Positions 265 to 16,628 of a stretch of DNA of 25,823 nucleotides are shown here, one piece after another. Each line of letters starts with the position of its first letter. The first letter of the stretch is position 1. The notes under the pieces are model-generated. The model was not told where the DNA came from and did no database searches. It saw only the letters and a list, made by a program, of their open reading frames with translations. The DNA is from a virus: positions 1-25,823 of the IMG/VR virus record IMGVR_UViG_3300042547_000289. One strand, written 5' to 3'. A program made the translations under genes and the position numbers.

Positions 265-274
265 GTGAGTATTC

Positions 275-358
275 CCCCAGCGACTAGGTCGTGCCCGTTC
301 AATCGGGACTGGGGACTAGCGGAGCACACGCTCCGTGAAGATAAGACCTGAGGAGGTC
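275..358 (+). promoter_or_regulatory. Family A start-associated RNA element plus SD hairpin (copy 1)
   Basis: Predicted three-way junction: outer stem CCCCAG (275-280) with CTGGGG (309-314), enclosing hairpin CGAC/GTCG with loop TAG (281-291) and hairpin CCCG/CGGG with loop TTCAAT (294-307). A further hairpin GGAGC/GCTCC with loop ACAC follows at 321-334. Next comes the Shine-Dalgarno hairpin GACCT/AGGTC with loop GAGG (345-358), five bases before the ATG at 363. The stems vary while the TTCAAT loop is kept in the other copies at 2535 and 6218. Function is inferred to be control of translation or RNA processing of the next gene. Confidence 0.7.
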
Positions 359-362
359 AACC

Positions 363-875
363 ATGAAAGCAAATGAAATCAGAGCAATTCGGAGTGTCAA
401 TCCCGAAGCGATCTTCTACGGTCACAAGTTCAATGGGTACTTCATCATTGACGATGTGATTGAAGAGCGGGTGGAACTTGACACCTCGTGGAGGTCATCT
501 TCACCGAAGTATCGCACGGTCAACAAGTTGAAGGGTCGCACGATCACTAGAGATCGTGGGCGTCAGCAGACATTGTCGTACAACGGTGAGATCGTCCCTG
601 AGCGCCTTCCATCAATGAAGGTGTCTGATGGGCTTCACTACCGCTTGCGTCCGCAGGACATCATTGGTGTGTACACCAAGCAATCGCTGAGTGAGTTCCT
701 AGAAGAGGAGCAGATCAGCATGATGCAAGCATTCACCGAAGAGCGAAACAGCAACGACCACTACGACTCGCTCGTAGATCAAGTTGCCGAGTTACTCGGT
801 GTGAGCAAGGCAACAGCCCGTCAAGGTGAGCCTCTACTGGAGGCAATCGTTGCCAAGTTCAAGGTGAACGCATAA
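363..875 (+). CDS. Hypothetical protein, 170 aa, possible C-terminal helix-turn-helix
   Basis: The start is fixed by the conserved GAGGAGGT site at 350-357. The protein is soluble and mixed-charge. The first hundred residues look beta-rich and basic (RTITRDRGRQQ near residues 59-69). The last third is helical, and residues about 137-162 (LVDQVAELLGVSKATARQ) have the spacing of a helix-turn-helix, which could mean DNA binding, but this rests on pattern alone. It is a single-gene module between a family A and a family B RNA element. I do not recognise a family. Confidence 0.85.
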   Translation: MKANEIRAIRSVNPEAIFYGHKFNGYFIIDDVIEERVELDTSWRSSSPKYRTVNKLKGRTITRDRGRQQTLSYNGEIVPERLPSMKVSDGLHYRLRPQDIIGVYTKQSLSEFLEEEQISMMQAFTEERNSNDHYDSLVDQVAELLGVSKATARQGEPLLEAIVAKFKVNA

Positions 876-883
876 GTGATCGG

Positions 884-981
884 CATCACGGGGGCAACCT
901 CGTGGTGTCCTCACGGTGCATCGGTCAAGTGATCGGTGCATCGTGAGGGCATTCGCCCAATTTAGATACCTGAGGAGGTAT
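884..981 (+). promoter_or_regulatory. Family B start-associated RNA element plus SD hairpin
   Basis: P1 is a 10-bp stem CATCACGGGG-type/CCTCGTGGTG with a GCAA tetraloop (884-907). P2 is a long hairpin of about 16 bp (909-948; CCTCACG pairs with CGTGAGG, then GTGCATCGG with TCGGTGCAT). P3 is GGGC/GCCC with loop ATTC (947-958) and shares two bases with P2. The Shine-Dalgarno hairpin is ATACCT/AGGTAT with loop GAGG (966-981), four bases before the ATG at 986. No T-run follows any stem, so a simple intrinsic terminator is unlikely. Confidence 0.7.
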
Positions 982-985
982 AACC

Positions 986-1672
986 ATGAATACAGAAGCA
1001 ATCTACGCCAAGGTGCAGGCAATCCTTGACCGTGCCAATCATCCGAACACGCCACAAGCGGAAGCCGAGACGGCTCTCGCCATGGCACAACGGCTCATGA
1101 TGAAGCATGGACTTGAAGAGTCCGCATTCGCCAAGGCTCAAGATCGTGACGAGAACATCGTGACTGAGGTCATTGAGGTTAGTGGCAAATGGCAACTTCG
1201 CCGTCTGTCACTCGCTGGATCAATCGCCAAAGCCAACTCTGTCGCTTGCTATCGCTCCACTAGGTGGAAAGATGGTAAGAGCCTGTTGACGCTGGTCGTG
1301 TATGGCACCGCTGGTGACATATTCGCTGTGAAGACGCTGTTCGCATCGGCAGACTTGCTCGCTTCTCGTGTGATCCCCAAGGGTGATCGGTCATTCCGCA
1401 ATGCGTGGTGGCTGGGATTCTCGGCGGGAGTAAGCGAGGTGTTGCGCAAGTCCAAGAACGAAGTGATCGCAGAGCAGGGTGTGGGCACTGGATTGGTGCT
1501 CGCTGACAAGTTCAAGCGTGCAGACAGCGAGATGCGTGCAAAGGTCAAACTCAAGTCGGCTGGCTACTCCCGATATTCATCGGGCAGTGGTTACTCGGCT
1601 GGGCAGTCTGCTGGTCGTGCATTCAGCACTGGTGGCATCGGCAACGGTGTTACTGGAGCGCTGGGACGATGA
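986..1672 (+). CDS. DUF2786 domain protein
   Basis: Residues 4-48 match the DUF2786 pattern seen in actinobacterial and phage proteins: an Ile-x-Ala-Lys-Val start (IYAKVQAILDRA), an Ala/Glu-rich helix (EAETALAMAQ) and the closing RLMMKHGLEES. The middle (about 60-185) is a mixed alpha/beta region. The last 40 residues are a low-complexity Gly/Ser tail (about 188-228). The biochemical role of DUF2786 is not known. The start is set by the SD hairpin. The last four bases, ATGA, are shared with the start of a HELAH metallopeptidase gene, so the two products are probably translationally coupled and may act together. Confidence 0.85.
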   Translation: MNTEAIYAKVQAILDRANHPNTPQAEAETALAMAQRLMMKHGLEESAFAKAQDRDENIVTEVIEVSGKWQLRRLSLAGSIAKANSVACYRSTRWKDGKSLLTLVVYGTAGDIFAVKTLFASADLLASRVIPKGDRSFRNAWWLGFSAGVSEVLRKSKNEVIAEQGVGTGLVLADKFKRADSEMRAKVKLKSAGYSRYSSGSGYSAGQSAGRAFSTGGIGNGVTGALGR

Positions 1673-2145
1673 GCATCCATGCATACATGGAGGCAGTGCG
1701 GGGGAGCGTTGAGAAGCGCTCTCCCAAAATGCCCGAGCATCAAGCCACGGTGTATGCGATAGAGCGTGAGGTGGCTTATCACTTGCCATCTCAGGTGATC
1801 GCCACCAAGGACGCATTCGCTTGGCTGGATCGTGTGTGCGAGACCGAAGGCTGGGATACGCCGATGGTTGACCGCATCCGATCCACCAAGTGGGCAGGTG
1901 TCGCTAGTGCCGAAGGCAATGTCATCGGCATCAGTGGCTCCAGTACGACAGTGCTCACACTGGCTCATGAACTCGCTCACATCGTATGTGGCGAGCGTGG
2001 GCACAATGAGTGCTGGCGTCATGCATTCGTGAACATCGTGCGAGATCACATCTCGGTACAGCATGCGTCACTCCTGCACACCTTGTACGAGCGCTTTCAA
2101 CTTCAATCAGGTCAGTGGAGGCTGACCGACACATCACGAGTGTGA
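1669..2145 (+). CDS. Putative zinc metallopeptidase (HELAH motif)
   Basis: Residues 100-104 are HELAH, the HExxH zinc-binding and catalytic signature of gluzincin- or SprT-like metallopeptidases. A downstream His (H112 in GERGH or H118 in WRHAF) could be the third ligand. The context resembles small actinobacterial metallohydrolases of the TIGR04338 type, though I cannot confirm that assignment. No signal peptide or membrane segment is present, so it should act in the cytoplasm. It overlaps the DUF2786 gene by ATGA. Its last five codons and stop codon fall inside hairpin P1 of the next RNA element (2132-2155), with the TGA in the loop. Confidence 0.75.
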   Translation: MSIHAYMEAVRGSVEKRSPKMPEHQATVYAIEREVAYHLPSQVIATKDAFAWLDRVCETEGWDTPMVDRIRSTKWAGVASAEGNVIGISGSSTTVLTLAHELAHIVCGERGHNECWRHAFVNIVRDHISVQHASLLHTLYERFQLQSGQWRLTDTSRV

Positions 2146-2232
2146 ACTCGTGGTGCTGTCATGGCTCATCGGCGCAAGTCGGTGGGTCATGACAGCATCA
2201 TCCGATGCTGAATCAAAATGCCTGAGGAGGCA
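2132..2232 (+). promoter_or_regulatory. Family B start-associated RNA element plus SD hairpin
   Basis: P1 is CATCACGAG/CTCGTGGTG with a 6-base loop that contains the stop codon of the upstream gene (2132-2155). P2 is a continuous stem of about 19 bp (2155-2173 with 2178-2196, several G-U pairs) closed by a GCAA tetraloop. P3 is AGCATC/GATGCT with loop ATCC (2194-2209), sharing three bases with P2. The Shine-Dalgarno hairpin is TGCCT/AGGCA with loop GAGG (2219-2232), and the ATG lies at 2237. Confidence 0.7.
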
Positions 2233-2236
2233 AACC

Positions 2237-2527
2237 ATGAAATACGGAATAGAAGACACAATTGCAAAGGCAATTCGTGGGCATGTCCACTTTGATTCCA
2301 TGTCAAATGAGACTCCAGAGTTCATGTGGAGGAGGCATTGTGACCGAGCACTACTTGCTCTGAGCGTGTTGTGGCAATCACTTGTGGATCAACTCAACAT
2401 GGACGGCGCAGTGGTCAATGAATGCAGGACAGCAGAAGAGAACATCGCATTCTTGATCAACTGCGGAGTTGGTGAAGAGGTTGCGAGGTTCACCGTCAAT
2501 GAAGAAAACAATTGGGGTTCCTACTAA
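2237..2527 (+). CDS. Hypothetical protein, 96 aa
   Basis: The reading frame extends further upstream (to 2150), but the conserved SD hairpin at 2219-2232 places the start at the ATG at 2237. The upstream extension would run through RNA stems. The protein (MKYGIEDTIAKAIRGHV...) is mainly helical, with Trp and Cys residues in RRHCDRALLALSVLWQSL (about 33-50). It shows no recognisable domain. Single-gene module. Confidence 0.8.
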   Translation: MKYGIEDTIAKAIRGHVHFDSMSNETPEFMWRRHCDRALLALSVLWQSLVDQLNMDGAVVNECRTAEENIAFLINCGVGEEVARFTVNEENNWGSY

Positions 2528-2534
2528 CCAATTC

Positions 2535-2615
2535 CCCTAGCGCCTCGGGCGTGCCGATTCAATTCGGGCTAGGGACTGTGAGCAACCGCTCACTACAAAA
2601 TACCTGAGGAGGTAT
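2535..2615 (+). promoter_or_regulatory. Family A start-associated RNA element plus SD hairpin (copy 2)
   Basis: Outer stem CCCTAG (2535-2540) with CTAGGG (2569-2574). Inner hairpins are CGCC/GGCG with loop TCG (2541-2551) and CCGA/TCGG with the invariant loop TTCAAT (2554-2567). Then come hairpin GTGAGC/GCTCAC with loop AACC (2578-2593) and SD hairpin ATACCT/AGGTAT with loop GAGG (2600-2615). Relative to copy 1, several inner pairs and one outer pair differ in a compensatory way. Confidence 0.7.
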
Positions 2616-2619
2616 AACC

Positions 2620-2937
2620 ATGAGTTATCAACTAACAGCGAATGATCTTGAATTGATCACCGAGATACTGGAGCAACACGATGTGGGCACTGTCATGCAG
2701 TACTCGGGTCGTGGGATGTATGGCGATCAGTGCCTCGGCATTGTGACCGAGGACGAGGCATCAACATTCTTGATCCTCGGTCTTGAATTGGCTGGTGCGT
2801 CCTACCGAAGTCTCGGCTTGACACTGAGCCGTTCGGGTATGCGCACCGACAGCATGGGGCGTGACTCCGTTGTTGTGTACTTCCCATCTATCACAATGCC
2901 CGAGGGCTTCGTGGAGGAGGACGAGGACAGCGACTGA
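2620..2937 (+). CDS. Hypothetical acidic protein, 105 aa
   Basis: The start is the ATG five bases after the SD hairpin. The protein begins with a helical segment (LTANDLELITEILEQHDVGT). A Gly-rich central part follows (SGRGMYGDQCLG). The C-terminus is very acidic (VEEDEDSD), as in many small phage proteins that bind host factors or mimic DNA, but no function can be assigned. It is a single-gene module; the next RNA element begins ten bases after the TGA. Confidence 0.8.
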   Translation: MSYQLTANDLELITEILEQHDVGTVMQYSGRGMYGDQCLGIVTEDEASTFLILGLELAGASYRSLGLTLSRSGMRTDSMGRDSVVVYFPSITMPEGFVEEDEDSD

Positions 2938-2946
2938 TAGTCGGGA

Positions 2947-3048
2947 GCATCACGGCGCAAGCCGTGGTGCCCTCACAGTGCAGGGGCGTTGGCTCGTGCA
3001 TTGTGAGGGCATACAATTGCCCATTCAACTAACAAAGCCTGAGGAGGC
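2947..3048 (+). promoter_or_regulatory. Family B start-associated RNA element plus SD hairpin
   Basis: P1 is a 10-bp stem GCATCACGGC/GCCGTGGTGC with a GCAA tetraloop (2947-2970). P2 is CCTCACAGTGCA/TGCATTGTGAGG with a 14-base loop (2971-3008). P3 is GGGCA/TGCCC with loop TACAAT (3007-3022) and shares two bases with P2. An unpaired A-rich spacer leads to the SD hairpin GCCT/AGGC with loop GAGG (3037-3048). The ATG is at 3052. Confidence 0.7.
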
Positions 3049-3051
3049 ACC

Positions 3052-3306
3052 ATGGATGCAAGTATTCACAAAGTAACTGGGTTACGGATTGAGAAGTCCG
3101 ATGATCCACGGCTCAAGACGATTGATCTCGTGATTGAGTACGAAGATTTGGCGGTCAGCCGTCCCCAGTGGGGGCAGGATGGAGAGTCATTCGGTTACGC
3201 AAAGTTGGAGTCAACGATCACGCTGTTCGTCAGTGACACCGTTGACATGGAGACAGTGCTGTGGCAAGCAATTGCAAATATCACTTCCCAACTCGCCAAT
3301 GCGTGA
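3052..3306 (+). CDS. Hypothetical protein, 84 aa
   Basis: Short soluble protein with a beta-rich middle (LKTIDLVIEYEDLAV, about 21-35; LESTITLFVSD, about 52-62) and a C-terminal helix (ETVLWQAIANITSQLANA). No Cys cluster, membrane segment or recognisable family. The ATG is fixed by the SD hairpin at 3037-3048. Single-gene module between two family B elements. Confidence 0.8.
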   Translation: MDASIHKVTGLRIEKSDDPRLKTIDLVIEYEDLAVSRPQWGQDGESFGYAKLESTITLFVSDTVDMETVLWQAIANITSQLANA

Positions 3307-3323
3307 GTAATCAGCAATGGGCA

Positions 3324-3430
3324 GTCACGGCGTGAGTCGTGGCGTGCTCGTGGTACATCGGTTCCCCCATCGGTGTATCACGAGGACGCAAGTCCACTTA
3401 GTAAACACAAACAGAATCTGAGGAGGTTCT
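3324..3430 (+). promoter_or_regulatory. Family B start-associated RNA element plus SD hairpin
   Basis: P1 is GTCACGGC/GTCGTGGC closed by a GTGA (GNRA) tetraloop (3324-3343). P2 is a 16-bp hairpin (3347-3362 with 3369-3384, loop TCCCCC). P3 is GGAC/GTCC with a GCAA tetraloop (3384-3395). The SD hairpin is AGAATCT/AGGTTCT with loop GAGG (3413-3430), including one T-G wobble. The ATG is at 3435. Confidence 0.7.
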
Positions 3431-3434
3431 TACC

Positions 3435-4160
3435 ATGGGTGCAATTACACCAAAGCAACAAGCGTTCATTCGCACATTGTTACTGGAGCGTGCTTCAACA
3501 CTTGAGATGACAACAGATCAGGTGGACGAGTTCATCACAACAATGAATCTGAATGAACTTACGAGCAAGTCAGCGTCCACTGCCATTGACAGCATTCGCA
3601 AGATTCAAGTCAAGGCTGTGGGCACCGCACACTTGCCACCTGCCGAGCGCACCATCGTGAACAAGTTTGCCAACCCGTGTGCCCTCTGTGGGCATCCAGT
3701 GTTGGCAGGCGCTGGTCATGCGTTGCTCATCGGCGGAGCATGGAGCACTTACCACAAAGAAGGTGAGTGCTCATCGGCTCCTGCAATCGTTGCCGACAAG
3801 GTGACCAATGAATCGTTCGGCACGCTTGCCGATGGTTTCTTTGCGTTGCCGTCATCGGGCACCAACGATCTTGTCTTCTACGCAATCAAGACCAACAAGG
3901 GCTTTCATAACGCAAGCCTGAAGGGTCAGCGAGGCATCTACATGCAAGTAGGTGGGCGTAGTGATGAGAAGTTGCGAGGAGAGCGTGGTCTCAATGCAAT
4001 CAAGCGCATCGCATCACTCAGTGATGATGAGCGACTGCAAGCACAAGCGCTGTACGGTCAAGAGATCGGACAGTGTGGTGTCTGCGGTCGGCGTCTCACT
4101 GATGAAGTGACACGCAAGCGTGGCATTGGCAATGACTGCGCAAGTAGGTTACAGATGTAG
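3435..4160 (+). CDS. DUF6011-type zinc protein
   Basis: 241 residues with two probable zinc sites. The first is C82-x2-C85 with H107 and C112 (CALCGHPVLAG... YHKEGEC). The second is the C-terminal C214-x2-C217...C235 unit (CGVCGRRLTDEVTRKRGIG then NDC), which matches the DUF6011 pattern common in actinophages. The N-terminus (TPKQQAFIRTLLLERA) is a helical segment also typical of these phage proteins. The role is unknown; a nucleic-acid-binding function is plausible from the zinc ribbons. It forms a single-gene module directly before the SNF2 helicase module. Confidence 0.8.
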   Translation: MGAITPKQQAFIRTLLLERASTLEMTTDQVDEFITTMNLNELTSKSASTAIDSIRKIQVKAVGTAHLPPAERTIVNKFANPCALCGHPVLAGAGHALLIGGAWSTYHKEGECSSAPAIVADKVTNESFGTLADGFFALPSSGTNDLVFYAIKTNKGFHNASLKGQRGIYMQVGGRSDEKLRGERGLNAIKRIASLSDDERLQAQALYGQEIGQCGVCGRRLTDEVTRKRGIGNDCASRLQM

Positions 4161-4169
4161 CCTGAGGGC

Positions 4170-4270
4170 GTCACAGGGCAACCTGTGGCGTGCTCGTAGT
4201 GCACAGGAGATGACGGACTTCTGTGCATTACGAGGACGCAAGTCCACTTAACAAGTACCTGAGGAGGTAT
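4170..4270 (+). promoter_or_regulatory. Family B start-associated RNA element plus SD hairpin
   Basis: P1 is GTCACAGG/CCTGTGGC with a GCAA tetraloop (4170-4189); its two central pairs differ from the CGGC/GCCG copies in a compensatory way. P2 is a 14-bp hairpin (4193-4206 with 4221-4234). P3 is GGAC/GTCC with GCAA (4234-4245), identical in sequence to the copy at 3384. The SD hairpin is GTACCT/AGGTAT with loop GAGG (4255-4270). The distance to the ATG at 4279 is longer than elsewhere. Confidence 0.7.
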
Positions 4271-4278
4271 CTAAGACC

Positions 4279-5805
4279 ATGAATAAACAACTAGAAGAAC
4301 TGAGCGCACTGCTCTCGGGGCTTGCCCGTGTTGTGCCAGCAATTAAACCTGACGCCACACTGCACGCTCTGAGCAGTGCACACAATGGTGATGTCAGTGT
4401 TGATCTTGCCGAGCCTCTATTCCCATTCCAGCGTGCTGGCGTTGCTTATGCAATCAAGCAGAAGCGAGTCATCATCGGAGATGAGATGGGGCTGGGTAAG
4501 ACACCACAAGCCATCGCTGTAGCAGTGCATGCGCACACCGAGAAGCACAAAGTGCTTGTCGTGGTGCCACCGTCACTGCGCATCAACTGGCTCCGCTCAT
4601 TCGCACTGTTCGCACCGTGGCTCTCCGTAGCCATCGTGAAGGGCAAGGCTGTGACTGCACTTCCCAAAGCCGATGTAATCATCATCGGTGACAGCAACAT
4701 TGACACATGGTCAATCAAGTTGGCGGGCAAGTTCGGCGCACTCATCGTAGATGAGGCTCACCGTGCGAAGACAGAGAAGTCAGCACGCACCAAGGGCATC
4801 GCATATGTCGCTAAGTCAATTCCGACTGAGGGATATGTGGTGTTGCTCTCGGGCACCATCATTGTGAATCGCCCAAACGAGTTGGTCTCGCCACTGTTGC
4901 TCATTGACAGGCTTGACCGAGTATTTGGTGGGCGCTTCTCATTCCGTCAGCGATACTGCGATCCCATCCACAACGGTTGGGGTTGGGTGTACAACGGAGC
5001 CAGCAACACCACTGAGTTGAATGACACCTTGCGTGGCACCTGCTATGTGAGGCGCAACAAGTCAGATGTGTTGAAAGAACTTCCAGCCAAGCGCCGTGCA
5101 CAAGTTGCTACCGAGATCAGTAACACTGACCTCGTGGCATATCGTCACGCCGAGAATGACTTCCGTGACTTCGTCATCGCCAACGGCGGTGTTGAAGCGT
5201 GGCAGAGGGCATCCAAGGCTGAGGTAGTCACACGGCTCAATGCGTTGCGCAAGTTGCTCGGAGTAGCAAAGGTCTCCTATGTGGTAGAGCATGTTGAAGA
5301 ACTTGTCGCTCAAGGCGAGAAGGTCATCGTGTTCGCACATCACAAGGATGTCATTGCAAAATTGACTAGTGCTTTCAATAAGCACGGTGTAGTCAAGGTT
5401 GCTGGTGGCATGACCGATGATGAGAAGCAGGTTGCGGTTGACGCCTTTCAAAATGGTGACGCCAAGGTATTCGTTGGACAATTCACATCGGCAGGTGTGG
5501 GCATTACGCTCACTGCTTCATCGCATGTGGTGTTCGCTGAAGTGCCATGGACACCAGCCGAAGCGGTGCAAGCCGAAGACCGTGCTCACCGTATCGGGCA
5601 GACAAACTCTGTTGTTGCTTGGTGGATGTTGGCAGTAGATAACAACATCGCACTACCCACTGTGGATGATCGCATGTGGGCATTGCTCAACGCCAAGCAC
5701 GAAGTAGTGTCGGCTGTCTTGACGGGCAACGGAGAAGATATGGGCGCCGAGGGTGGAAGTATCACCCAAGAACTCATAGAAGGGATTGTCGGTAACGGAG
5801 GATGA
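4279..5805 (+). CDS. SNF2-family DNA helicase/translocase
   Basis: A complete two-lobe SF2/SNF2 ATPase of 508 residues. Seen motifs: Q-motif-like FPFQRAGVAYA (48-58), Walker A GDEMGLGKT (67-75), DEAH box VDEAH (157-161), motif III LLSGT (189-193), the SNF2-type RRNKSDVLKELPAK (258-271), motif V GVGITLTAS and motif VI EDRAHRIGQ (433-441). The compact size and lack of extra domains fit the SMARCAL1-like phage helicases. It probably moves along or anneals DNA during phage replication or recombination. The start is the ATG after the SD hairpin. Its stop overlaps a possible 45-codon gene by ATGA. Confidence 0.95.
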   Translation: MNKQLEELSALLSGLARVVPAIKPDATLHALSSAHNGDVSVDLAEPLFPFQRAGVAYAIKQKRVIIGDEMGLGKTPQAIAVAVHAHTEKHKVLVVVPPSLRINWLRSFALFAPWLSVAIVKGKAVTALPKADVIIIGDSNIDTWSIKLAGKFGALIVDEAHRAKTEKSARTKGIAYVAKSIPTEGYVVLLSGTIIVNRPNELVSPLLLIDRLDRVFGGRFSFRQRYCDPIHNGWGWVYNGASNTTELNDTLRGTCYVRRNKSDVLKELPAKRRAQVATEISNTDLVAYRHAENDFRDFVIANGGVEAWQRASKAEVVTRLNALRKLLGVAKVSYVVEHVEELVAQGEKVIVFAHHKDVIAKLTSAFNKHGVVKVAGGMTDDEKQVAVDAFQNGDAKVFVGQFTSAGVGITLTASSHVVFAEVPWTPAEAVQAEDRAHRIGQTNSVVAWWMLAVDNNIALPTVDDRMWALLNAKHEVVSAVLTGNGEDMGAEGGSITQELIEGIVGNGG

Positions 5806-5939
5806 TCGTGGGCGCTGTAGCGCTTCATGGTCAGCGCTACTGGCGACATACGGAGTGCTCCTGTCCTCACGGGAGCACACCACAGTGCATCACGGGCGCA
5901 AGCCCGTGGTGTTCTGACTGTACATTGTCTCACCGATAG
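5802..5939 (+). CDS. Possible small Cys-rich protein, 45 aa (doubtful)
   Basis: An ATG at 5802 overlaps the helicase stop as ATGA, the junction used throughout this arm. It opens a 45-codon frame ending in TAG at 5937-5939. The product has six Cys in two groups (CSCPHG, QC, PWCSDC), which resembles a zinc-binding knuckle. Against it: GGAGG lies directly against the ATG, and the second half runs through the conserved P1 and P2 stems of the RNA element. It would explain the unusually long 82-base gap between the helicase stop and P1. The gap also contains two perfect hairpins, at 5817-5840 (GTAGCGCT/AGCGCTAC) and 5855-5878 (GTGCTCCTG/CGGGAGCAC), so the region may instead be purely structural RNA. 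Confidence 0.35.
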   Translation: MIVGAVALHGQRYWRHTECSCPHGSTPQCITGASPWCSDCTLSHR

Positions 5940-5989
5940 TGTACGGTCAGAACATCATCCGATGTTCAACAAGTAGACCTGAGGAGGTC
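5888..5989 (+). promoter_or_regulatory. Family B start-associated RNA element plus SD hairpin
   Basis: P1 is CATCACGGGC/GCCCGTGGTG with a GCAA tetraloop (5888-5911). P2 is a 15-bp stem (5912-5926 with 5938-5952). P3 is GAACATC/GATGTTC with loop ATCC (5950-5967); compared with P3 at 2194-2209 the loop is the same and the stem pairs covary. The SD hairpin is GACCT/AGGTC with loop GAGG (5976-5989). The ATG is at 5993. Two extra hairpins upstream (5817-5840 and 5855-5878) are found only in this copy. Confidence 0.7.
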
Positions 5990-5992
5990 ACC

Positions 5993-6208
5993 ATGTACAA
6001 CTTAAATGTAAGTCTCAACGGAGGCATAGACCGCCGTGGATCCGAACTGGACATCCTGTACCAGTTAGTTGAAGAGGGCATGGAAGCCATCTACAACCGA
6101 CTTGGTGACGATGGCATTTATCCATGGGGAACTGTGGAGCAGTATGTCGCTGTACAGCGGAAGATCCAAGATGCTCTCGGAGAGATCTGTTCTAAGAACG
6201 GTTTCTAA
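5993..6208 (+). CDS. Hypothetical protein, 71 aa
   Basis: The frame is open from 5939, but the SD hairpin at 5976-5989 fixes the start at the ATG at 5993. The product (MYNLNVSLNGGIDRRG...) has a helical core (ILYQLVEEGMEAIYNRLG) and a second helix near the C-terminus. No known domain, Cys cluster or membrane segment. Single-gene module followed by a family A element. Confidence 0.75.
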   Translation: MYNLNVSLNGGIDRRGSELDILYQLVEEGMEAIYNRLGDDGIYPWGTVEQYVAVQRKIQDALGEICSKNGF

Positions 6209-6217
6209 TTGAGATTC

Positions 6218-6303
6218 CCCTAGCGCCTCGGGCGTAGCGTTCAATCGTGACTAGGGACAATGCGAAAGCAGATACACACAAACCAATTAAAGCCTGAGGA
6301 GGC
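6218..6303 (+). promoter_or_regulatory. Family A start-associated RNA element plus SD hairpin (copy 3)
   Basis: Outer stem CCCTAG (6218-6223) with CTAGGG (6251-6256). Inner hairpins are CGCC/GGCG with loop TCG (6224-6234) and a weaker GCG/CGT with the invariant TTCAAT loop (6237-6248). The next hairpin is TGC/GCA with a GAAA (GNRA) tetraloop (6261-6270). The SD hairpin is GCCT/AGGC with loop GAGG (6292-6303). The ATG is at 6307. Confidence 0.65.
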
Positions 6304-6306
6304 ACC

Positions 6307-6549
6307 ATGAAAGTAAGTAAAGCAATTGAATTATTAAGGGATATCAATCCTGACGAAGAGATTTGCATCTCTTGGTGGGAATCAAACCTGTTCACTACAG
6401 GTGACGATGAAACACCATTGTCGGCAGACTCAGATGGATGGCTCAGTGCCGTTCAAGAGTTTGACTCCAGTGGTGGGTATGCATCAGTAAATGAAGATGT
6501 TTGGACATTCTTGTACCAAGCAATTAACGAAGTGGAGGTGGGTTACTGA
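6307..6549 (+). CDS. Hypothetical acidic protein, 80 aa
   Basis: First gene of a three-gene module. The N-terminus (MKVSKAIELLRDINPDEEICI) resembles the small phage proteins that start with a helix followed by a Pro-Asp-x-Glu turn and a beta strand; their function is unknown. The protein is strongly acidic. Its TGA overlaps the next ATG by one base (TGATG), which suggests coupled translation. Confidence 0.8.
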   Translation: MKVSKAIELLRDINPDEEICISWWESNLFTTGDDETPLSADSDGWLSAVQEFDSSGGYASVNEDVWTFLYQAINEVEVGY

Positions 6550-6764
6550 TGGCAAATGAAATTGTAGTTAAATGGTCGTGGCACGACATCAAAGCGTGGT
6601 ACCCCGAATGGACTCAAGAACAGTGTCAGGACGCATTGGACGAAGTTGACGGGTATGTACACGAGAGAGTCGTGGAACTCGGCAACGATGTGTTACAACA
6701 ATTGGTATACGAGATCGTTGAAACCTCATGGGGCGAAGACGAAGAAACGGAGGAAACAGAATGA
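6549..6764 (+). CDS. Hypothetical acidic protein, 71 aa
   Basis: Second gene of the module, starting within the previous stop (TGATG). Trp-rich N-terminal part (VKWSWHDIKAWYPEWTQEQ), a central helix, and a very acidic tail (WGEDEETEETE). No recognisable family. Its stop overlaps the start of the next gene (ATGA at 6761-6764). Confidence 0.8.
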   Translation: MANEIVVKWSWHDIKAWYPEWTQEQCQDALDEVDGYVHERVVELGNDVLQQLVYEIVETSWGEDEETEETE

Positions 6765-7048
6765 GCAATATCGGAACACCAGTAGGTGCATGGGCAATCA
6801 TCCAGTGGTATGACTCAGGCATTGAGGACGAGCGTTACTTCTCGTTTGGCACATGGGATAACAATGCATGGAACGGCGAGTTTGACTCGCTGGGCAACCG
6901 TGACGATGAGGTCTTCTTCTACTGTGAAGACGGCGAGGAGCAACTCAAGACGCTCATCGGCAACAGCGGTGAGGACTTTGTGGTCTTGTCGTATGACATT
7001 GTCTACAACACCCCACTCGTGCTTACTGACATGGAAGGTACATCCTGA
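6761..7048 (+). CDS. Hypothetical protein, 95 aa
   Basis: The frame is open from 6728, but the ATG at 6761 overlaps the upstream stop as ATGA and follows GGAGG at 6749-6753, so I choose it. The protein is rich in Trp, Tyr, Asp and Gly (MSNIGTPVGAWAIIQWYDSG...) and looks beta-rich and acidic. No family recognised. Third gene of its module; its TGA is followed at once by the next family B element. Confidence 0.75.
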   Translation: MSNIGTPVGAWAIIQWYDSGIEDERYFSFGTWDNNAWNGEFDSLGNRDDEVFFYCEDGEEQLKTLIGNSGEDFVVLSYDIVYNTPLVLTDMEGTS

Positions 7049-7054
7049 TCGGGT

Positions 7055-7163
7055 GCATCATGGCTCACGCCATGGTGCGCTCACAGCCCACAGACATTGT
7101 TTGTGGGTTGTGAGGGCACTTTGTGCCCGATAAAGTAATTAATCCCTAAGACCTGAGGAGGTC
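7055..7163 (+). promoter_or_regulatory. Family B start-associated RNA element plus SD hairpin
   Basis: P1 is GCATCATGGC/GCCATGGTGC with loop TCAC (7055-7078). P2 is CTCACAGCCCACA/TGTGGGTTGTGAG (7080-7114). P3 is GGGCAC/GTGCCC with loop TTT (7114-7128). An alternative outer stem, ATCGGG (7048-7053) with CCCGAT (7126-7131), would enclose P1 and P2 as a three-way junction and exclude P3. The SD hairpin is GACCT/AGGTC with loop GAGG (7150-7163). The ATG is at 7168. Confidence 0.7.
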
Positions 7164-7167
7164 AGTT

Positions 7168-7356
7168 ATGAGCAAGTGGATAGTAAGAGTTAACGAAACC
7201 ATTGACTATGGGTACGAGGTAGAAGCGACATCCGAGGCAGACGCCTTTGAAAAGTTCTATCGCCTTGATGGTGACCAATTAGAAGTTGCGCTCAAATGGA
7301 AAGAAAGTTTGGGCTTTGAAGCACCATGGACAGCCAACGAAACGGAGGGTAAGTAA
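7168..7356 (+). CDS. Hypothetical protein, 62 aa
   Basis: First of a four-gene coupled module. The protein reads as beta strand, strand, helix (MSKWIVRVNETIDYGYEVEA, then TSEADAFEKFYRL). This resembles the many small phage proteins of the 'xYxVxAxSxxxAxE' kind, whose role is unknown. Its TAA shares one base with the next ATG (TAATG). Confidence 0.75.
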   Translation: MSKWIVRVNETIDYGYEVEATSEADAFEKFYRLDGDQLEVALKWKESLGFEAPWTANETEGK

Positions 7357-7634
7357 TGGGAAGCATGAATGCACTAGGAATGAATGAGGCTGTCGTGGAC
7401 GGTCTCATTGAACTACGACAGGCGCTCTCGTGGCACCTGACATCCAATCACTATCCATCCGTGCCTTTGAGCATGCTGGATGCTTGCGTATTAGCAATTG
7501 AGTACCTGAACGAGGAAGACGCCGATGCCAACATCACACTGCCTGAGGGCGTGCTGTGGCGTGGTCAGGCTGTCGCTCCTGCGTGGGCAGTTGTTGATGC
7601 GTACCATCTTGAGTCATTCTTGGAGGAGAACTGA
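7356..7634 (+). CDS. Hypothetical protein, 92 aa
   Basis: Second gene of the module; starts inside the upstream stop (TAATG) with GGAGG at 7346-7350. Mostly helical, with no Cys or membrane segment. An in-frame second ATG lies four codons on, so a slightly shorter product is possible. No family recognised. Its TGA overlaps the next ATG (TGATG). Confidence 0.75.
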   Translation: MGSMNALGMNEAVVDGLIELRQALSWHLTSNHYPSVPLSMLDACVLAIEYLNEEDADANITLPEGVLWRGQAVAPAWAVVDAYHLESFLEEN

Positions 7635-7834
7635 TGCAGAGCGTAGAGCAGTATTTCAAGAGCGAGGGAGAGATCCCAACAGCAGTGATCATGTGTCAGC
7701 ACGACTTCCGTCCAGCATCTGACTTACCTTCGGATGTATGGAGGTGTGTCAAATGCGCTGAGAACGGTTGGGACAGCCAGCAGACTCAGTTCGCTCCATG
7801 CAATGGCAACTGCCGTTGTGGGGGCGAGCAATGA
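7634..7834 (+). CDS. Small putative zinc-binding protein, 66 aa
   Basis: Third gene of the module, coupled by TGATG. Contains C-x-H (CQH) about residue 21, WRC-x2-C (WRCVKCAENGW) and a Cys-rich C-terminus (CNGNCRCGGEQ). This is the pattern of a small zinc finger or knuckle found in many phage proteins. Nucleic-acid or protein binding is plausible; no specific function can be given. Its stop overlaps the next start (ATGA). Confidence 0.7.
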   Translation: MQSVEQYFKSEGEIPTAVIMCQHDFRPASDLPSDVWRCVKCAENGWDSQQTQFAPCNGNCRCGGEQ

Positions 7835-8076
7835 GCGGTTATCCAGTAGTGCGCAGGGATTTGGTGGAGGCGGATCTTTTGATCCCCTCCGTCAATACCA
7901 ACGAGTACTACGGTACCGAAGACATCATCAAACTTAAGTACATTGGCAATGTCAATGAGCAATTTGAAGATGACTTCTCGGGAGGATATGTCAAGTTCCG
8001 TGACCCGAGAGGACACTTTGTGTTTCTCTACAGCATTGACCTAGATTGGATTGAAACATCGTTAAACGAGTCCTGA
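7831..8076 (+). CDS. Hypothetical protein, 81 aa
   Basis: The frame opens at 7768, but the ATG at 7831 overlaps the preceding TGA as ATGA, the usual junction here, and gives MSGYPVVRRDLVEADLLIPS. Residues about 25-75 look beta-rich with many aromatic and acidic positions. No family recognised. Last gene of the module; the next RNA element starts 20 bases after its stop. Confidence 0.7.
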   Translation: MSGYPVVRRDLVEADLLIPSVNTNEYYGTEDIIKLKYIGNVNEQFEDDFSGGYVKFRDPRGHFVFLYSIDLDWIETSLNES

Positions 8077-8096
8077 GAGGCTCGTACGAAGGGTGC

Positions 8097-8210
8097 CATC
8101 AGCCTTGGCTGGTGACATCCCGTGGGTGCTCTGCCCACTGATCGGGGTAGAGCGCCCACGGGGTGACGACACTGTGTCACACCCATGAGTTAAAGAATCT
8201 GAGGAGGTTC
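8097..8210 (+). promoter_or_regulatory. Family B start-associated RNA element plus SD hairpin
   Basis: P1 is CATCAGC/GCTGGTG with loop CTTG (8097-8114). P2 is a long 18-bp stem (8119-8136 with 8145-8162). P3 is a two-part hairpin, GGGTG/CACCC (8161-8165 with 8180-8184) enclosing GACA/TGTC (8168-8178). The SD hairpin is GAATCT/AGGTTC with loop GAGG (8195-8210), as at 3414-3429. The ATG is at 8213. This is the last element of the series in the window. Confidence 0.7.
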
Positions 8211-9326: not shown

Positions 9327-9616
9327 ATACAAAAGATTACACAAGGCAAAACAACATCGTGAAACGCACCTTTCTTACTGTGTTAGCAGTAGGTGGGGCG
9401 TTGTTTCTCGTGTGGGCTGTGCGTGACTACAACAAGCGCATGACCACCTATTCATGTGACACGGCACCAGTGACTGTCTACAGGGGTGACACCTTGTGGC
9501 AGATCGCTCGCCAGCACTGTTGGGGCAACCTGTCCGTGGCTGTAGACGATCTCGTAGAGGAGTACGGGACGAACCTTCAGATTGGACAGACCATTTACCT
9601 GAAGAGCAATTCATAA
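9323..9616 (+). CDS. Membrane-anchored LysM domain protein
   Basis: Starts at GTG 9323, overlapping the upstream stop as GTGA. The N-terminus is basic, then residues about 16-33 (TFLTVLAVGGALFLVWAV) form one transmembrane segment. Residues about 51-94 match a LysM module (VYRGDTLWQIARQHC ... LQIGQTIYLK), with the usual GDTLW start and the NLQIGQ-x-IYL ending. LysM binds peptidoglycan, so the domain probably faces the cell wall. A role in lysis, superinfection exclusion or surface change is inference. Two Cys (C45, C66) could form a disulfide outside the membrane. Confidence 0.85.
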   Translation: MNTKDYTRQNNIVKRTFLTVLAVGGALFLVWAVRDYNKRMTTYSCDTAPVTVYRGDTLWQIARQHCWGNLSVAVDDLVEEYGTNLQIGQTIYLKSNS

Positions 9617-9642
9617 ATTAATTAATTAGAAGTTGCAATGAG

Positions 9643-9676
9643 TACCCCCACGGGGGTAGTTTTATCCCCGTGGTAC
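9643..9676 (+). terminator. Mutually exclusive hairpins (terminator/anti-terminator-like)
   Basis: Hairpin I is TACCCC/GGGGTA with loop CACG (9643-9658), followed by GTTTTAT, which looks like an intrinsic terminator after the LysM gene. Hairpin II is CCACGGGG (9648-9655) with CCCCGTGG (9666-9673), an 8-bp perfect stem using the same bases. Only one can form at a time. It marks the end of the modular series and lies 38 bases before the DUF932 gene, whose SD (AAGGAG, 9701-9706) is ordinary. Confidence 0.6.
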
Positions 9677-9713
9677 AAACAACCAAACAATTCAAACGAC
9701 AAGGAGAAATATC

Positions 9714-10733
9714 ATGAGTAAGGAAACCAGCCAGTGGCTTAACCAAAATGTATTGGTGGGCTTTACATCTAAGCGTGGAAACGCATGGCACTACAAGGCA
9801 ACCGATCAGGGAACCGAGCCAAACCATTACGAGCAGGCAATCCCTGTAGAGGATGTCCAGCGCCGTCTGTTTCACTGGAAGGCTGTTGAAGCGCCAGTGT
9901 TCGTGCAGGTGCCTGACATCTCGGGAGTCAAGTACATCCAGCAAGACGACCGCAAGGCTGTTGTGCGTGATGACACCTTTGAGACTCTCGGTCTCTTCAA
10001 GGACTCATACCAAATCCACCAGTACCAAGAATGGTTGCTGGGAACCGTTGCCAATGTCATTGATGACAGCAACCTTCAGATCGGTTCTGCGGGTCTGTTG
10101 CGCAATGGCGGCGTTGCTTGGGTCAGCATTGAAATGCCTGAAACAATCAGCACTAAGGCTGGCTTTGAGTTCCGCCCGCACCTGCTCGCAACCACGAGCC
10201 ACAACGGCACGCTTGCCACTACCTTCAAACGAGTGGTGACCGCAGTGGTCTGTGACAACACACTCGCTGGAGCGCTCGGTGAGGCTGGCAGTGAGTTCAA
10301 GACACGCCACAGCAAGTACAGCAACGGACGCATCCAAGACATCCGTGATGCTCTCGGGATCATCCACACCATGGCAGACGAGGTCACTCTTGAAATTGAG
10401 CGACTCTCTTCTATCTCGGTCAGACAGTCTGAGTGGGACGCCATTGTTGATCGTCTCATCCCCGTTGGTTCCGAAGAGGCACGACCACAAGCAGTGAGCC
10501 GTGCTCAGAACAAGCAGGAAGCAATCCGCCACCTGTACAAGTACGACCCACGAGTTGCCCCATGGATGGGAACTGGTCTCGGAGTGTTGCAGGCATTCAA
10601 CACCTACCAGCACCACCTCAGTGGCAAGGATGACAGCCGTGTTGAGCGCAATGCTCTCAACGCACTCAACGGGAAGACAGATGACTTTGATCGTCAAGTC
10701 CTCCGCATCTTGGGTGATGTGGTTCTTGTATGA
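9714..10733 (+). CDS. DUF932 (phage/plasmid-like, TIGR03299 type) protein
   Basis: 339 residues matching the DUF932 family found in phages and plasmids. The most typical stretch is residues about 152-187 (EFRPHLLATTSHNGTLAT, then FKRVVTAVVCDNTLAGAL). The C-terminal half is helical. The family is often found beside recombination or anti-restriction genes, but its activity is not known. AAGGAG eight bases upstream sets the ATG. There is no GAGG-loop hairpin here, unlike the genes before it. The stop overlaps the start of a WhiB gene (ATGA), so the two are probably co-translated. Confidence 0.9.
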   Translation: MSKETSQWLNQNVLVGFTSKRGNAWHYKATDQGTEPNHYEQAIPVEDVQRRLFHWKAVEAPVFVQVPDISGVKYIQQDDRKAVVRDDTFETLGLFKDSYQIHQYQEWLLGTVANVIDDSNLQIGSAGLLRNGGVAWVSIEMPETISTKAGFEFRPHLLATTSHNGTLATTFKRVVTAVVCDNTLAGALGEAGSEFKTRHSKYSNGRIQDIRDALGIIHTMADEVTLEIERLSSISVRQSEWDAIVDRLIPVGSEEARPQAVSRAQNKQEAIRHLYKYDPRVAPWMGTGLGVLQAFNTYQHHLSGKDDSRVERNALNALNGKTDDFDRQVLRILGDVVLV

Positions 10734-11113
10734 GTGACACTCTTGAGACGGGGGAGCAATCCCCCGTCACTGAGTACAGTTATTGGGAGATGGTAGAGCC
10801 TCTTCCATTCCCTGATCTGTATTCAACATGGCGTGAGCAATCACTATGCAAAGACAAGGGAGAACTCTTCTTTGTACCTACCTACCGTGGCGTTAATGTG
10901 AAGTGGCTTCATCAGCGCAAGAAGCGTGCAATGAAGATATGCGCCGATTGCCCTGTCCAGTATGAGTGCCTGCGTTATGCAGTACTTAATGACATGCGAC
11001 ATGGAATATGGGGAGGCAAAGATATGCAGTCCCTTAAGAAAGAAGAGCGTGTAGTTATCACCAAGCGCATAGAGCGCATAGAAATAAAGTCAGCCAAGGC
11101 TGTCAATAAGTGA
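10730..11113 (+). CDS. WhiB-family [4Fe-4S] transcription regulator
   Basis: Contains the four cluster-binding Cys of WhiB proteins (C40, C71, C74, C80; CADCPVQYEC) and the G[I/V/L]WGG turn (GIWGG, 92-96), followed by a basic C-terminal tail (KKEERVVITKRIERIEIKSA). WhiB proteins are restricted to actinobacteria and their phages; they bind sigma factor region 4 and change host transcription or block superinfection. Here it follows the DUF932 gene by ATGA overlap. The last 24 bases overlap the 3' end of the convergent glycosyltransferase gene. Confidence 0.93.
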   Translation: MSDTLETGEQSPVTEYSYWEMVEPLPFPDLYSTWREQSLCKDKGELFFVPTYRGVNVKWLHQRKKRAMKICADCPVQYECLRYAVLNDMRHGIWGGKDMQSLKKEERVVITKRIERIEIKSAKAVNK

Positions 11114-13139: not shown

Positions 13140-13556
13140 TTAAGGCTGAATCAACCTGAACTTAAGCATCTCTAAATCAATCAGGGTTGTCCCCATTTTA
13201 GGAATCTCTTGAATGTTTATTTCATTAATCTCTTTTGCTTCAGCCTCCACACACTCTGTACACCTACAACCTTGTCTGTAGCGTGTCCATGTACCGTGTG
13301 GACGCATGACACTGGCTTTAGGGTGATCAACAGTGAGCGCTGTGCGCTCCTGTGGCGTGAGTCCGCCCCACAATCCCCACTTCTCATCAATCCCATCATC
13401 TAAACATTGTTTCCACACAGGACATTGACGACATACTGCTCTAGAAATTGTGTAGTAATTCTCAGGAATGTCGGTGTCTAGTGGTGGGTACCAAAGGTCA
13501 ACATGGCGATCTTTACAGAGCGCTTGCTCTCGCCAGTCTTCCTCAAACTGTGGCAA
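13140..13556 (-). CDS. WhiB-family regulator with C-terminal HGT/GCRC zinc-like motif
   Basis: WhiB domain with cluster Cys C14, C42, C45 and C51 (CRQCPVWKQC) and GLWGG (61-65). A second unit follows: RPHGTWTRYRQGCRCTEC (86-102), the His-Gly-Thr ... Gly-Cys-Arg-Cys-x2-Cys pattern seen in many actinophage proteins and likely to bind a metal. The start appears to be TTG 13556, directly after the TAA of the upstream gene; no strong SD is seen. This is the second WhiB of the window; the two differ in length and tail, so they probably have different targets. Confidence 0.88.
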   Translation of the reverse strand: MPQFEEDWREQALCKDRHVDLWYPPLDTDIPENYYTISRAVCRQCPVWKQCLDDGIDEKWGLWGGLTPQERTALTVDHPKASVMRPHGTWTRYRQGCRCTECVEAEAKEINEINIQEIPKMGTTLIDLEMLKFRLIQP

Positions 13557-14906: not shown

Positions 14907-14935
14907 AGGCTAACGGTGAACTAGAGGGTTGTCAA
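14907..14935 (-). promoter_or_regulatory. Sigma-70-type promoter for the nucleotidase operon
   Basis: On the minus strand a perfect -35 TTGACA (14935-14930) is followed after 17 bases by TAGCCT (14912-14907), a TAnnnT -10 box. The -35 box overlaps the stop codon of the preceding gene. It is 31 bases from the ATG at 14876 and is the best canonical promoter I see in the window. Confidence 0.55.
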
Positions 14936-16368
14936 TTATCGTCAGAGAGGTCTAGCACTTCGGAGTACAGAGCATTGGTGGCATTAGAACCTAATCCGCC
15001 ACCTTCTAGTGCTCTCGTAGATTCTCCTGCTCTCGGGCCGAACAGTCGGGACATGACTCCTGAACCAGCCCGTGCTTCTACTTCTAAGCGGATGGTGTCT
15101 CGTGTATCTGAGATGTTCTTGAACTTGTCAATCAGGTTGAAGAGGCGATCCATCTCATGGGATAGTGCTGGGTCAAGACCCTGTCCTTCTAGTTCTTCAG
15201 CGAAGCGAGCGAAGAGCACACGGCTTACTTGCATCTCTAAAAGTGCTCGCATAGCGGCTTGAAGTTGGTCTTTAGTGCGTATCTCAATTGGTAACTTAAA
15301 GGCACATTCTGAATGTTCCTTGAAACTCGGACATTTGTTGCTGAGATAGCAACTATCGCACTGCCGTAAAGGGCTTGAATTGTATCGTAAAACGTCTACT
15401 TTTATGGGGTCTATTTCTATAGATTCCCCTTCACTGTCAACGGTTTGCGAGCCAAAGGAGGTAATCGTTTCTACACCCATGACTGGTAGCAATACACGCT
15501 CACTCTCGTGCCGCTTCGTTGGGGTGTTGATAGCAATAGTTGACCCTCCAGAAACCAAAGAAGTGGGGGTACCCGTTGTGGGGGGTATAGCAACTATCTG
15601 CCCATTATCGGACGTCAAAACTTCTTGCTCGTCATCGTCATTCATAGGGTCATAGCCCCCAAAAGTATGTGTCTCCCATTGCTTCCATGAAGCGATAGCA
15701 AGGGTTCCAACGGCGGATACATTGTCATCCATTACAGCATCAAAGTCAACGCCAAGACGAGCGATGTCGGCTCGGTGCTTTCTACGGGCTGAATCTTTTT
15801 GTTGTGCGGGGTAACGGCGTAAACCGTGACCGTCCCACACTTGCGTTTCGCCATAGCGAATAGCACTTGTCCATGAGCCTACGATTACCGTGTCCCACTG
15901 GATGCGCTCAATGAGGTCTGGCTTTGAGGTGATCCCTACCAGTTTGGCGCTCCAGCGCTGCGCAATAGAAGCGATGCGAGCCACATTCTTACCTGTGACT
16001 GCCTTGTCACTGATTGCTGCCCGTCCGTACTTTTGGCAGAGCCACGCTAAACGCTCCAGATCCTGCTCGTCATTCCACAACGGGTAGTACTTATCCCCCA
16101 GCCAGGCTCCATCGTAGTCAGGGCGTCCAATAACCATAAATAAAGAGTCTGCGTGGTCACGGACGAAGGTGTCAAAGCGAGTGGTATCTTCATCGTTTTC
16201 AGAGGTGTACACAATGACATCTCCACCATCAAAAAGGGCGCTGATGTCCAGTTCTTTCTTTTTAGGGATTGGAAAGTGTGTCAGGTTGATGGCGTAGCGC
16301 TTTACACCCGCATTCACAAGCATCTTTCTATAAGACCCTTTTTCCGCTCCACCAAAGAAGATCTTCAT
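14932..16368 (-). CDS. Two-part protein: alpha/beta (TIM-barrel-like?) domain plus Cys4 helical domain
   Basis: The ATG at 16368 overlaps the upstream stop (ATGA) and gives 478 residues. Residues 1-235 alternate strands and helices (IFFGGAEKGSYRKML; VIVYTSEND; LFMVIGRPDYDG; LVGITSKPD; VIVGSWTSAIRYGE), like a TIM barrel. The WTSAIRYGETQVWDG and GLRRYPA stretch recalls queuine/7-deazaguanine transglycosylase-like phage proteins (DpdA-type), but only weakly. Residues 236-330 are low-complexity. Residues 337-355 have C337-x2-C340-x5-C346-x8-C355, a likely zinc site, followed by a helical region (360-430) and a Gly-rich tail. A terminase-accessory or DNA-modification role is conceivable. I do not recognise the family firmly. 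Confidence 0.7.
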   Translation of the reverse strand: MKIFFGGAEKGSYRKMLVNAGVKRYAINLTHFPIPKKKELDISALFDGGDVIVYTSENDEDTTRFDTFVRDHADSLFMVIGRPDYDGAWLGDKYYPLWNDEQDLERLAWLCQKYGRAAISDKAVTGKNVARIASIAQRWSAKLVGITSKPDLIERIQWDTVIVGSWTSAIRYGETQVWDGHGLRRYPAQQKDSARRKHRADIARLGVDFDAVMDDNVSAVGTLAIASWKQWETHTFGGYDPMNDDDEQEVLTSDNGQIVAIPPTTGTPTSLVSGGSTIAINTPTKRHESERVLLPVMGVETITSFGSQTVDSEGESIEIDPIKVDVLRYNSSPLRQCDSCYLSNKCPSFKEHSECAFKLPIEIRTKDQLQAAMRALLEMQVSRVLFARFAEELEGQGLDPALSHEMDRLFNLIDKFKNISDTRDTIRLEVEARAGSGVMSRLFGPRAGESTRALEGGGLGSNATNALYSEVLDLSDDN

Positions 16369-16628
16369 TCTTCTAGAGTCTTTTCGTCCCAGTAGGTGTC
16401 TCGCCATATTGAGGGACTGTGGTTTTGCTCTACTAAAAGTGCTTCCAATTCGTCACCGTACAGGCGAAGCATGTGCACGCAGGGGTCGTCTCCATCGTCC
16501 CACGCCAAGTCTTCGTCCTCGGTTGTGGGTATGCCATCGTGTGTAGTGCACACGGGAGGCCCAACAAACTTCTTTTCTAACCCGATGCGTAGCCATGTTT
16601 CAAAGGTCATTTTTGAGTGATCAGCCAT
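16365..16628 (-). CDS. Conserved phage hypothetical protein, 87 aa
   Basis: Acidic. The layout is a helix (MTFETWLRIGLEKKFV), then GPPVCTTHDGIPTTEDE, then DDGDDPCVHMLRLYGD. The GPPVCxxHDGxPTT and DPCxHxxRLY pattern is familiar from many phage and actinobacterial small proteins whose function is not known; Cys27, His30, Cys50 and His52 could hold a metal. It overlaps the upstream gene by 8 bases and the downstream one by 4. Confidence 0.8.
   Translation of the reverse strand: MADHSKMTFETWLRIGLEKKFVGPPVCTTHDGIPTTEDEDLAWDDGDDPCVHMLRLYGDELEALLVEQNHSPSIWRDTYWDEKTLEE

Follow-up and report, generated by a model that had tools for sequence, protein, structure and literature searches.

The window analysed here is a 25,823-nucleotide stretch, the 25.8-kb fragment of an uncultured actinophage held in IMG/VR as record IMGVR_UViG_3300042547_000289. 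Before eleven of its genes the Shine-Dalgarno (SD) sequence is enclosed in a short hairpin that is a selected RNA structure. A sequence-only reading of the same DNA had proposed these hairpins as a control switch at the ribosome-binding site (RBS), and had missed the structured module that lies 5' of each hairpin and that is a hammerhead in related phages. Because hammerheads replace the upstream module in those phages, our reading shifts from an RBS switch to a transcript-processing cassette. We lean, by a small measure, towards the view that cassettes at gene boundaries cut or mark a long transcript and supply an unpaired linker followed by a weakly folded RBS.

Hairpins that enclose the Shine-Dalgarno sequence

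All eleven hairpins were found on the plus strand with the stem classes previously listed, each upstream of an ATG (Table 1). The eleven positions first given for them are correct as the starts of hairpins, but they are not start codons. Each element consists of CTGAGGAG with complementary flanks of 2-5 nt, and the sequence CTGAGGAGG occurs 11 times on the plus strand of the record and not at all on the minus strand. Between AGGAGG and ATG lie 4-11 nt throughout, and the isolated stems fold as drawn, with predicted free energies of -4.2 to -6.3 kcal/mol. The hairpins mark the starts of gene blocks in the window: of the 12 starts behind an intergenic gap (90-187 nt), 11 have one, and of the ten starts that overlap the upstream gene, none does. 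The sole gapped start without an SD hairpin is that of a DUF932 gene at 9714, where positions 9616-9714 combine a CCCCCACGGGGG-type hairpin with an AAGGAG SD that is open.

Relatives were collected by means of the SNF2-type helicase gene (window positions 4279-5805) and the pattern ACCTGAGGAGGTN{0,6}ACCATG. Many of these relatives carry 4-15 hairpin copies per contig, grouped on a single strand (contigs of up to 97 kb). Of 119 genome stretches compared for host genes with this element, 116 contain a single copy only, and the repeated form is therefore phage-specific in this sample. Nonredundant sites from the other contigs (n=184, at most 90% identity over 75 nt) were used to evaluate base-pairing. 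Since the pattern itself had found the contigs, the 103 of these sites that fall outside it were analysed separately as a control for bias.

The pairs adjoining the CT/AG core are retained far more often than column composition predicts. In counts made without correction for phylogeny, the second pair outside the core is Watson-Crick at 98% of the 184 sites (57% expected) and the third at 81% (37% expected). At the 103 off-pattern sites the corresponding values are 97% (38% expected) and 77% (32% expected), and all four types occur at the second pair (A-U 54, G-C 27, U-A 15, C-G 4). Pairs 5-8 are Watson-Crick at chance level. As the SD forms the 3' side of the first pair, this pair is either C-G or U-G, and U-A is all but absent. 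These findings uphold the proposal, made from compensatory changes within the window, that the SD hairpin is a selected RNA structure. Compensatory changes together with G-U wobbles, which a DNA palindrome would not tolerate, indicate RNA rather than DNA, and the occurrence of four different symmetric bases at one position makes a single protein reader unlikely.

The predicted stability of the stem is also held. The 13 sites that combine a weak U-G pair with A-U at the second pair always have 4-5 pairs in total outside the core, and G-C at the second pair accompanies only 2-3, such that weak inner pairs go with longer stems. Predicted free energies have a standard deviation of 1.25 kcal/mol, compared with 1.93 kcal/mol after the outer pairs were shuffled among sites; none of 1000 shuffles was as narrow, and the predicted stability is kept near -5.5 kcal/mol. 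Where CTGAGGAG precedes an ATG, it folds into a hairpin at 160 of 161 sites. The loop is less constant than had been supposed: GAGG is invariant in the window and is kept at nearly all family sites, but GC-rich relatives have CAGG, TAGG or AAGG, and others keep the hairpin with altered or longer loops (GACC-CGAGGA-GGTC, GCCT-AAGGA-GGGC and GGAGC-AGAGGAG-GCTCC). The constant feature across relatives is that the SD is enclosed in a hairpin.

Structured modules upstream of the hairpins

Folding of the gaps placed a large structure 5' of every SD hairpin in the window, of type A in three cases and of type B in eight. A module was recognised at 127 of 137 family sites (93%), comprising 50 of type A, 15 hammerheads and the remainder type B. 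The 12-nt linkers between module and SD hairpin are A-rich (39% A, 13% G). The window holds no hammerhead at E values up to 1, and its type A and type B modules match no ribozyme family in Rfam.

At most sites in the related records L017 and L102, the module is a type II hammerhead, with GAAA, NUH and CUGANGA motifs and three stems. A pattern scan over 2.2 Mb of loci found 15 type II cores, all of them 14-24 nt 5' of an SD hairpin. The Rfam Hammerhead_II model scores them at 28-36 bits (E values down to 8e-4), with 36.4 and 32.7 bits in L102. In an alignment of 12 copies the core is invariant and the stems covary (0.466 compared with 0.167 when shuffled). The hammerhead core and its three closing stems are present in the modules of L017, L102 and L300, which are hammerhead ribozymes by these sequence features and are predicted to cleave themselves. 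The order of hammerhead and then SD hairpin also occurs in L300, L034 and L024; within the stretches compared, no protein of L024 or L034 resembles those of the window family. A further record of the window's clade, L033, shows a single match of hammerhead type (32.6 bits), in which CUGACGA may be followed by one additional base.

Hammerheads before start codons are common, given that a scan with one hammerhead stem matched at least 120 stretches of viral DNA, and in many of these several hammerheads stand immediately 5' of starts. Phage contigs with at least three such hammerheads each include L201, L235, L237, L265, L281, L182 and L297, and two of the L235 hammerheads exceed the Rfam gathering score. 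The SD core CUGAGGAG was also considered as a hammerhead core (CUGANGA), and was rejected because inspection by eye found neither GAAA nor stems consistently around it.

Type A modules, found in three window gaps and at 50 family sites, have a 6-bp P1, a 4-bp P2 with a triloop, the dinucleotide UG, a P3 of 3-5 bp with a UUCAAU loop, a single A, the flank ACU, a hairpin and a linker. In 42 sequences comprising type A and the SD stem, 95.3% of cells are paired (74% when shuffled), and the covariation value is 0.498, compared with 0.145 when shuffled and at most 0.125 when partners are slid; the module alone gives 0.567 compared with 0.162. With its training sequences counted, a type A covariance model matched 98 times across 40 loci. 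Among distinct matches, 55 of 57 are followed by CTGAGGAG 24-34 nt in the 3' direction, and the two exceptions have an ambiguous base at the CTGAGGAG position and an SD hairpin of different sequence, respectively. Type A has no match in Rfam and was absent from Mycobacterium phage Anaya. It was also absent from 198 bacterial genomes of one class, in a scan without a positive control that shows little.

In 48 of 50 type A modules, exactly 11 nt separate the UUCAAU loop from an [AG]C[UA] flank, even though P3 has either 3 or 4 bp. In GC-rich L068 the loop is UUCGACU, a textbook T-loop, at the same distance from the flank. This fixed stack, similar to the acceptor and T arms of tRNA and joined to an RCC-like flank, suggests by analogy recognition by RNase P. 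This reading is only a lead, because tRNA has 12 nt and ACC where type A has 11 nt and ACU; neither ARAGORN nor Rfam calls a tRNA. Alternatively, type A may be a new ribozyme.

Type B occupies eight window gaps and comprises a P1 hairpin, an H2 stem of 16-24 bp and a small H3. Among family sites with neither type A nor a hammerhead, H2 stem scores reach at least 14 at 62 of 72, compared with none of 216 shuffles. Type B has the long, near-perfect duplex expected of an RNase III site. In some modules (for example, 2947-3022) H2 can also be lengthened by pairing between P1 (its 3' arm) and H3 (its 5' arm), and both pairings appear to be kept; judging from these folds, type B could switch between two forms. 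A match resembling a PyrR-binding site (8055-8163; 37.6 bits, below the gathering score of 54, E 0.06) has its core AGUCCUGAGAGGCU immediately 5' of the module of the gene at 8213, and L021 and L108 give similar scores.

Table 1. Positions of SD hairpins and upstream modules in the window; the type A sequences scored here with model R1 belong to its training set.
Feature	Positions	Strand	Remarks
Type A (three-way junction, UUCAAU loop, 3' flank ACU), then P4 hairpin and linker to SD hairpin 345	272..317	+	R1 68.9 bits, E 5.8e-16
SD hairpin GACCT-GAGG-AGGTC	345..358	+	ATG 363
Type B (P1 hairpin, long H2, small H3) before SD hairpin 966	883..958	+	folds, long stem
SD hairpin ATACCT-GAGG-AGGTAT	966..981	+	ATG 986
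Type B before SD hairpin 2219; 5' end overlaps stop of upstream gene	2130..2210	+	folds, long stem
SD hairpin TGCCT-GAGG-AGGCA	2219..2232	+	ATG 2237
Type A before SD hairpin 2600	2532..2577	+	R1 68.2 bits
SD hairpin ATACCT-GAGG-AGGTAT	2600..2615	+	ATG 2620
Type B before SD hairpin 3037	2947..3022	+	folds, long stem
SD hairpin GCCT-GAGG-AGGC	3037..3048	+	ATG 3052
Type B before SD hairpin 3413	3321..3395	+	folds, long stem
SD hairpin AGAATCT-GAGG-AGGTTCT, with U-G pair	3413..3430	+	ATG 3435
Type B before SD hairpin 4255	4167..4245	+	folds, long stem
SD hairpin GTACCT-GAGG-AGGTAT	4255..4270	+	helicase ATG 4279
Type B before SD hairpin 5976	5887..5967	+	folds, long stem
SD hairpin GACCT-GAGG-AGGTC	5976..5989	+	ATG 5993
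Type A before SD hairpin 6292	6215..6259	+	R1 57.5 bits
SD hairpin GCCT-GAGG-AGGC	6292..6303	+	ATG 6307
Type B before SD hairpin 7150	7055..7128	+	folds, long stem
SD hairpin GACCT-GAGG-AGGTC	7150..7163	+	ATG 7168
Type B-like (longest H2) before SD hairpin 8195	8093..8180	+	folds, long stem
SD hairpin GAATCT-GAGG-AGGTTC, with U-G pair	8195..8210	+	ATG 8213

The 25.8-kb record has no close match among deposited phages. Two WhiB-family genes in the window, at 10730-11113 (plus strand) and 13140-13556 (minus strand), point to an actinobacterium as the probable host. The gene at 14932-16407 (minus strand) is a homolog of a Streptomyces phage dpdA-like tRNA-guanine transglycosylase (27-29% identity), and from this resemblance it might take part in 7-deazaguanine DNA modification.

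Interchange of modules and a proposed processing cassette

Proteins encoded downstream of the elements were clustered to compare modules across orthologs. All three kinds of module stand before the gene with the motif M[PS]Y..WGNTPAYKA: a hammerhead in L017 and a second record, type B in L048 and type A in L021. Types A and B also exchange in several other ortholog groups. The SD stems before orthologs of the MSYQL gene differ as well (ATACCT/AGGTAT, GTACCT/AGGTAC, GACCT/AGGTC and CTCCT/AGGAG). This interchange before orthologous genes is the main reason to think that types A and B act like a hammerhead. Both would then be cleaved, and the cassettes may affect translation. The replacement of a hammerhead by two uncharacterised RNAs before orthologous genes provides a direct lead to new ribozymes or RNase substrates. 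A reading of the elements as promoters or terminators was rejected in view of the presence of one sigma70-like promoter site against 6.8 expected and by the lack of an excess of T-tailed terminators, as expected for read-through transcription.

In our proposal, each intergenic gap of the gene cluster holds a modular RNA cassette. A folded module, be it a hammerhead, type A or type B, is followed by a short linker without pairing, by the SD hairpin and by the AUG with which a translationally coupled block of genes begins. The module would cut a long co-transcribed message at the boundaries of gene blocks, or mark it for cutting. A hammerhead would cut itself, the long duplex of type B would suit RNase III, and type A would either serve RNase P as a tRNA-like substrate or cleave itself as a ribozyme of a new kind. 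Every product of cutting would retain a compact 5' leader. Ribosomes would land on the linker as a standby site, and the SD would be held by the weak hairpin in a defined local fold, shielded from mispairing yet open enough for full initiation.

Published data bear on both parts of this proposal. Perreault et al. (2011) proposed that clusters of hammerheads split phage transcripts into gene-sized mRNAs, and demonstrated cleavage of multi-hammerhead prophage arrays in vitro; one array was also shown to cleave in E. coli (PMC3088659). In MS2, hairpins of -6.6 and -7.9 kcal/mol allow 0.8 and 1.0 of maximal expression, respectively, and one of -9.5 kcal/mol allows 0.2 (PMC9894550), values that were obtained at 42 C with energy parameters other than those used for the window stems. 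Given this near-full expression, stems of -4 to -6 kcal/mol should not repress on their own. In tisB mRNA, a 5' end that is processed and structured activates translation, and together with a standby region free of pairing it can serve an RBS that is sequestered (PMC7708055). These considerations lead us to favour processing combined with a standby-assisted, locally folded RBS.

Several observations weigh against this reading. At approximately 7% of family sites no module was recognised, and the hammerheads of the window's clade score just under the Rfam gathering threshold (28-36 compared with 37 bits). Some AGGAGG starts outside cassettes also fold locally. The cassettes move between genes, and many of the changed pairs may therefore have arisen by such swaps and not by point mutation, in counts that are not corrected for phylogeny. 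Most other multi-hammerhead phages have no CTGAGGAG hairpin, which makes the hairpin a separate refinement that is separable from the cutter.

One alternative is that the cassette acts as a stabiliser of 5' ends or as a folding insulator, with no cutting involved. Types A and B would then be barriers that protect the leader from nucleases, and the SD would be kept off C-rich strands of the module. The compact stacked structures, the short linker and the narrow range of hairpin stability would all fit, but the interchange with hammerheads at an orthologous gene points to cutting, and we regard this alternative as unlikely, though deserving of attention.

Somewhat less probable still is a translational operator, in which the SD hairpin is bound and stabilised by a protein of the phage or its host, or by another RNA, with joint repression of the gene blocks. 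One type of hairpin does stand before 11 blocks, and its stability is just below the published range for repression, such that modest stabilisation by a ligand could repress. However, relatives differ in the first loop position and in the closing pair (CAGG, TAGG, AAGG and hexaloops), the stems use all pair types and leave mainly the SD to recognise, and no candidate binding protein was identified. The suggestions that opening of the stem is the control step and that a phage or host protein is the switch thus find no support, given the variable loop and closing pair and given stems on the permissive side of the MS2 data. CsrA-type binding was considered and rejected because the loop does not have the ANGGA spacing. 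RtcB ligase was likewise rejected as a partner for 2',3'-cyclic-phosphate ends, being absent from 16 family records and from other hairpin phages, several of which are fragments. The Cluster K phage Anaya (L110), which has SAS and ESAS elements, encodes an RtcB-like RNA ligase at 43036-44223.

A DNA-level element, either a palindromic operator or a promoter-linked site such as Pope et al. proposed for ESAS, would account for an inverted repeat in multiple copies with strand bias. It is nevertheless very improbable in view of the four pair types at one position, the U-G pairs in stems, the tight link to SDs and start codons, and promoters that are not in excess. Hardly credible is the view that recombination has spread copies of an ordinary strong RBS in which the hairpin arises incidentally from a CCT 5' of AGGAGG, since although cassettes are clearly shuffled between genes, the pairs outside CCT/AGG covary at the 97% and 77% of sites given above, longer stems offset weak inner pairs, and shuffled flanks give a mean of -1.8 kcal/mol compared with -6.9 kcal/mol for the real ones.

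Within the processing reading, a more specific proposal is that type A represents a new class of mRNA-processing RNA, either an undescribed ribozyme that cleaves itself or a tRNA-like substrate of RNase P. Type A, hammerheads and RNase III-type stems would then be cutters able to replace one another, each coupled to a stability-tuned SD hairpin. We put this forward tentatively, as a possibility with chances somewhat short of even. The cassette offers a testable unit of cutter, landing site and tuned RBS, and the hammerheads that take the place of its folded module in related phages suggest a general system that divides one long viral message into separately translated pieces.

Comparison with known systems

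No description of this combination of parts was found in the literature searched, with preprints and most subscription journals lying outside the search. The closest parallels in placement are the SAS and ESAS elements of Cluster K phages and an analogue in EF-cluster Microbacterium phages, where a repeated element likewise occurs at the RBS of many genes of the non-structural modules (PMC3203893, PMC7302621, PMC12699233). As in the window, the SAS places the SD in a short inverted repeat, often with a larger inverted repeat upstream. However, the SAS is conserved in sequence, with a 13-nt consensus GGGATAGGAGCCC (at most two mismatches) that none of the 11 window elements resembles. Copies in phage Anaya are mostly exact, and most deviations near starts break pairing, whereas in the window family the sequence varies and pairing is kept. 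The window element is therefore not the Cluster K SAS, whose different sequence the sequence-only reading had also noted, although it occupies the same place.

A similar distinction applies to the upstream parts. ESAS elements are 17-bp imperfect inverted repeats with one consensus, whose arms share one sequence, and their authors argue against an RNA fold because the arms are uncompensated. The window modules differ in sequence and keep their pairing, and the upstream modules of this family are covarying RNAs or hammerheads. SAS-like elements have been described since 2011, and on the question of whether they act as RNA the present family is clear: its own elements are RNA structures.

Polycistronic early mRNA of T7-like phages is cut at long intercistronic RNase III hairpins. 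Type B resembles these hairpins but has a conserved P1-H2-H3 stack, and it is a candidate only for such cleavage. The hammerhead arrays of phages and prophages (PMC3088659) are matched by the relatives L017, L102 and L300 and by the unrelated L034 and L024, in that several hammerheads, predicted to cleave themselves, flank single genes or short blocks, whereas the window gaps carry type A or type B instead. Finally, the standby sites and structured RBSs of the MS2 coat gene and tisB (PMC9894550, PMC7708055) share with the cassette an unpaired region beside an SD hairpin. The predicted cassette differs from them in that it is repeated before many genes with constant predicted stability and a very short linker.

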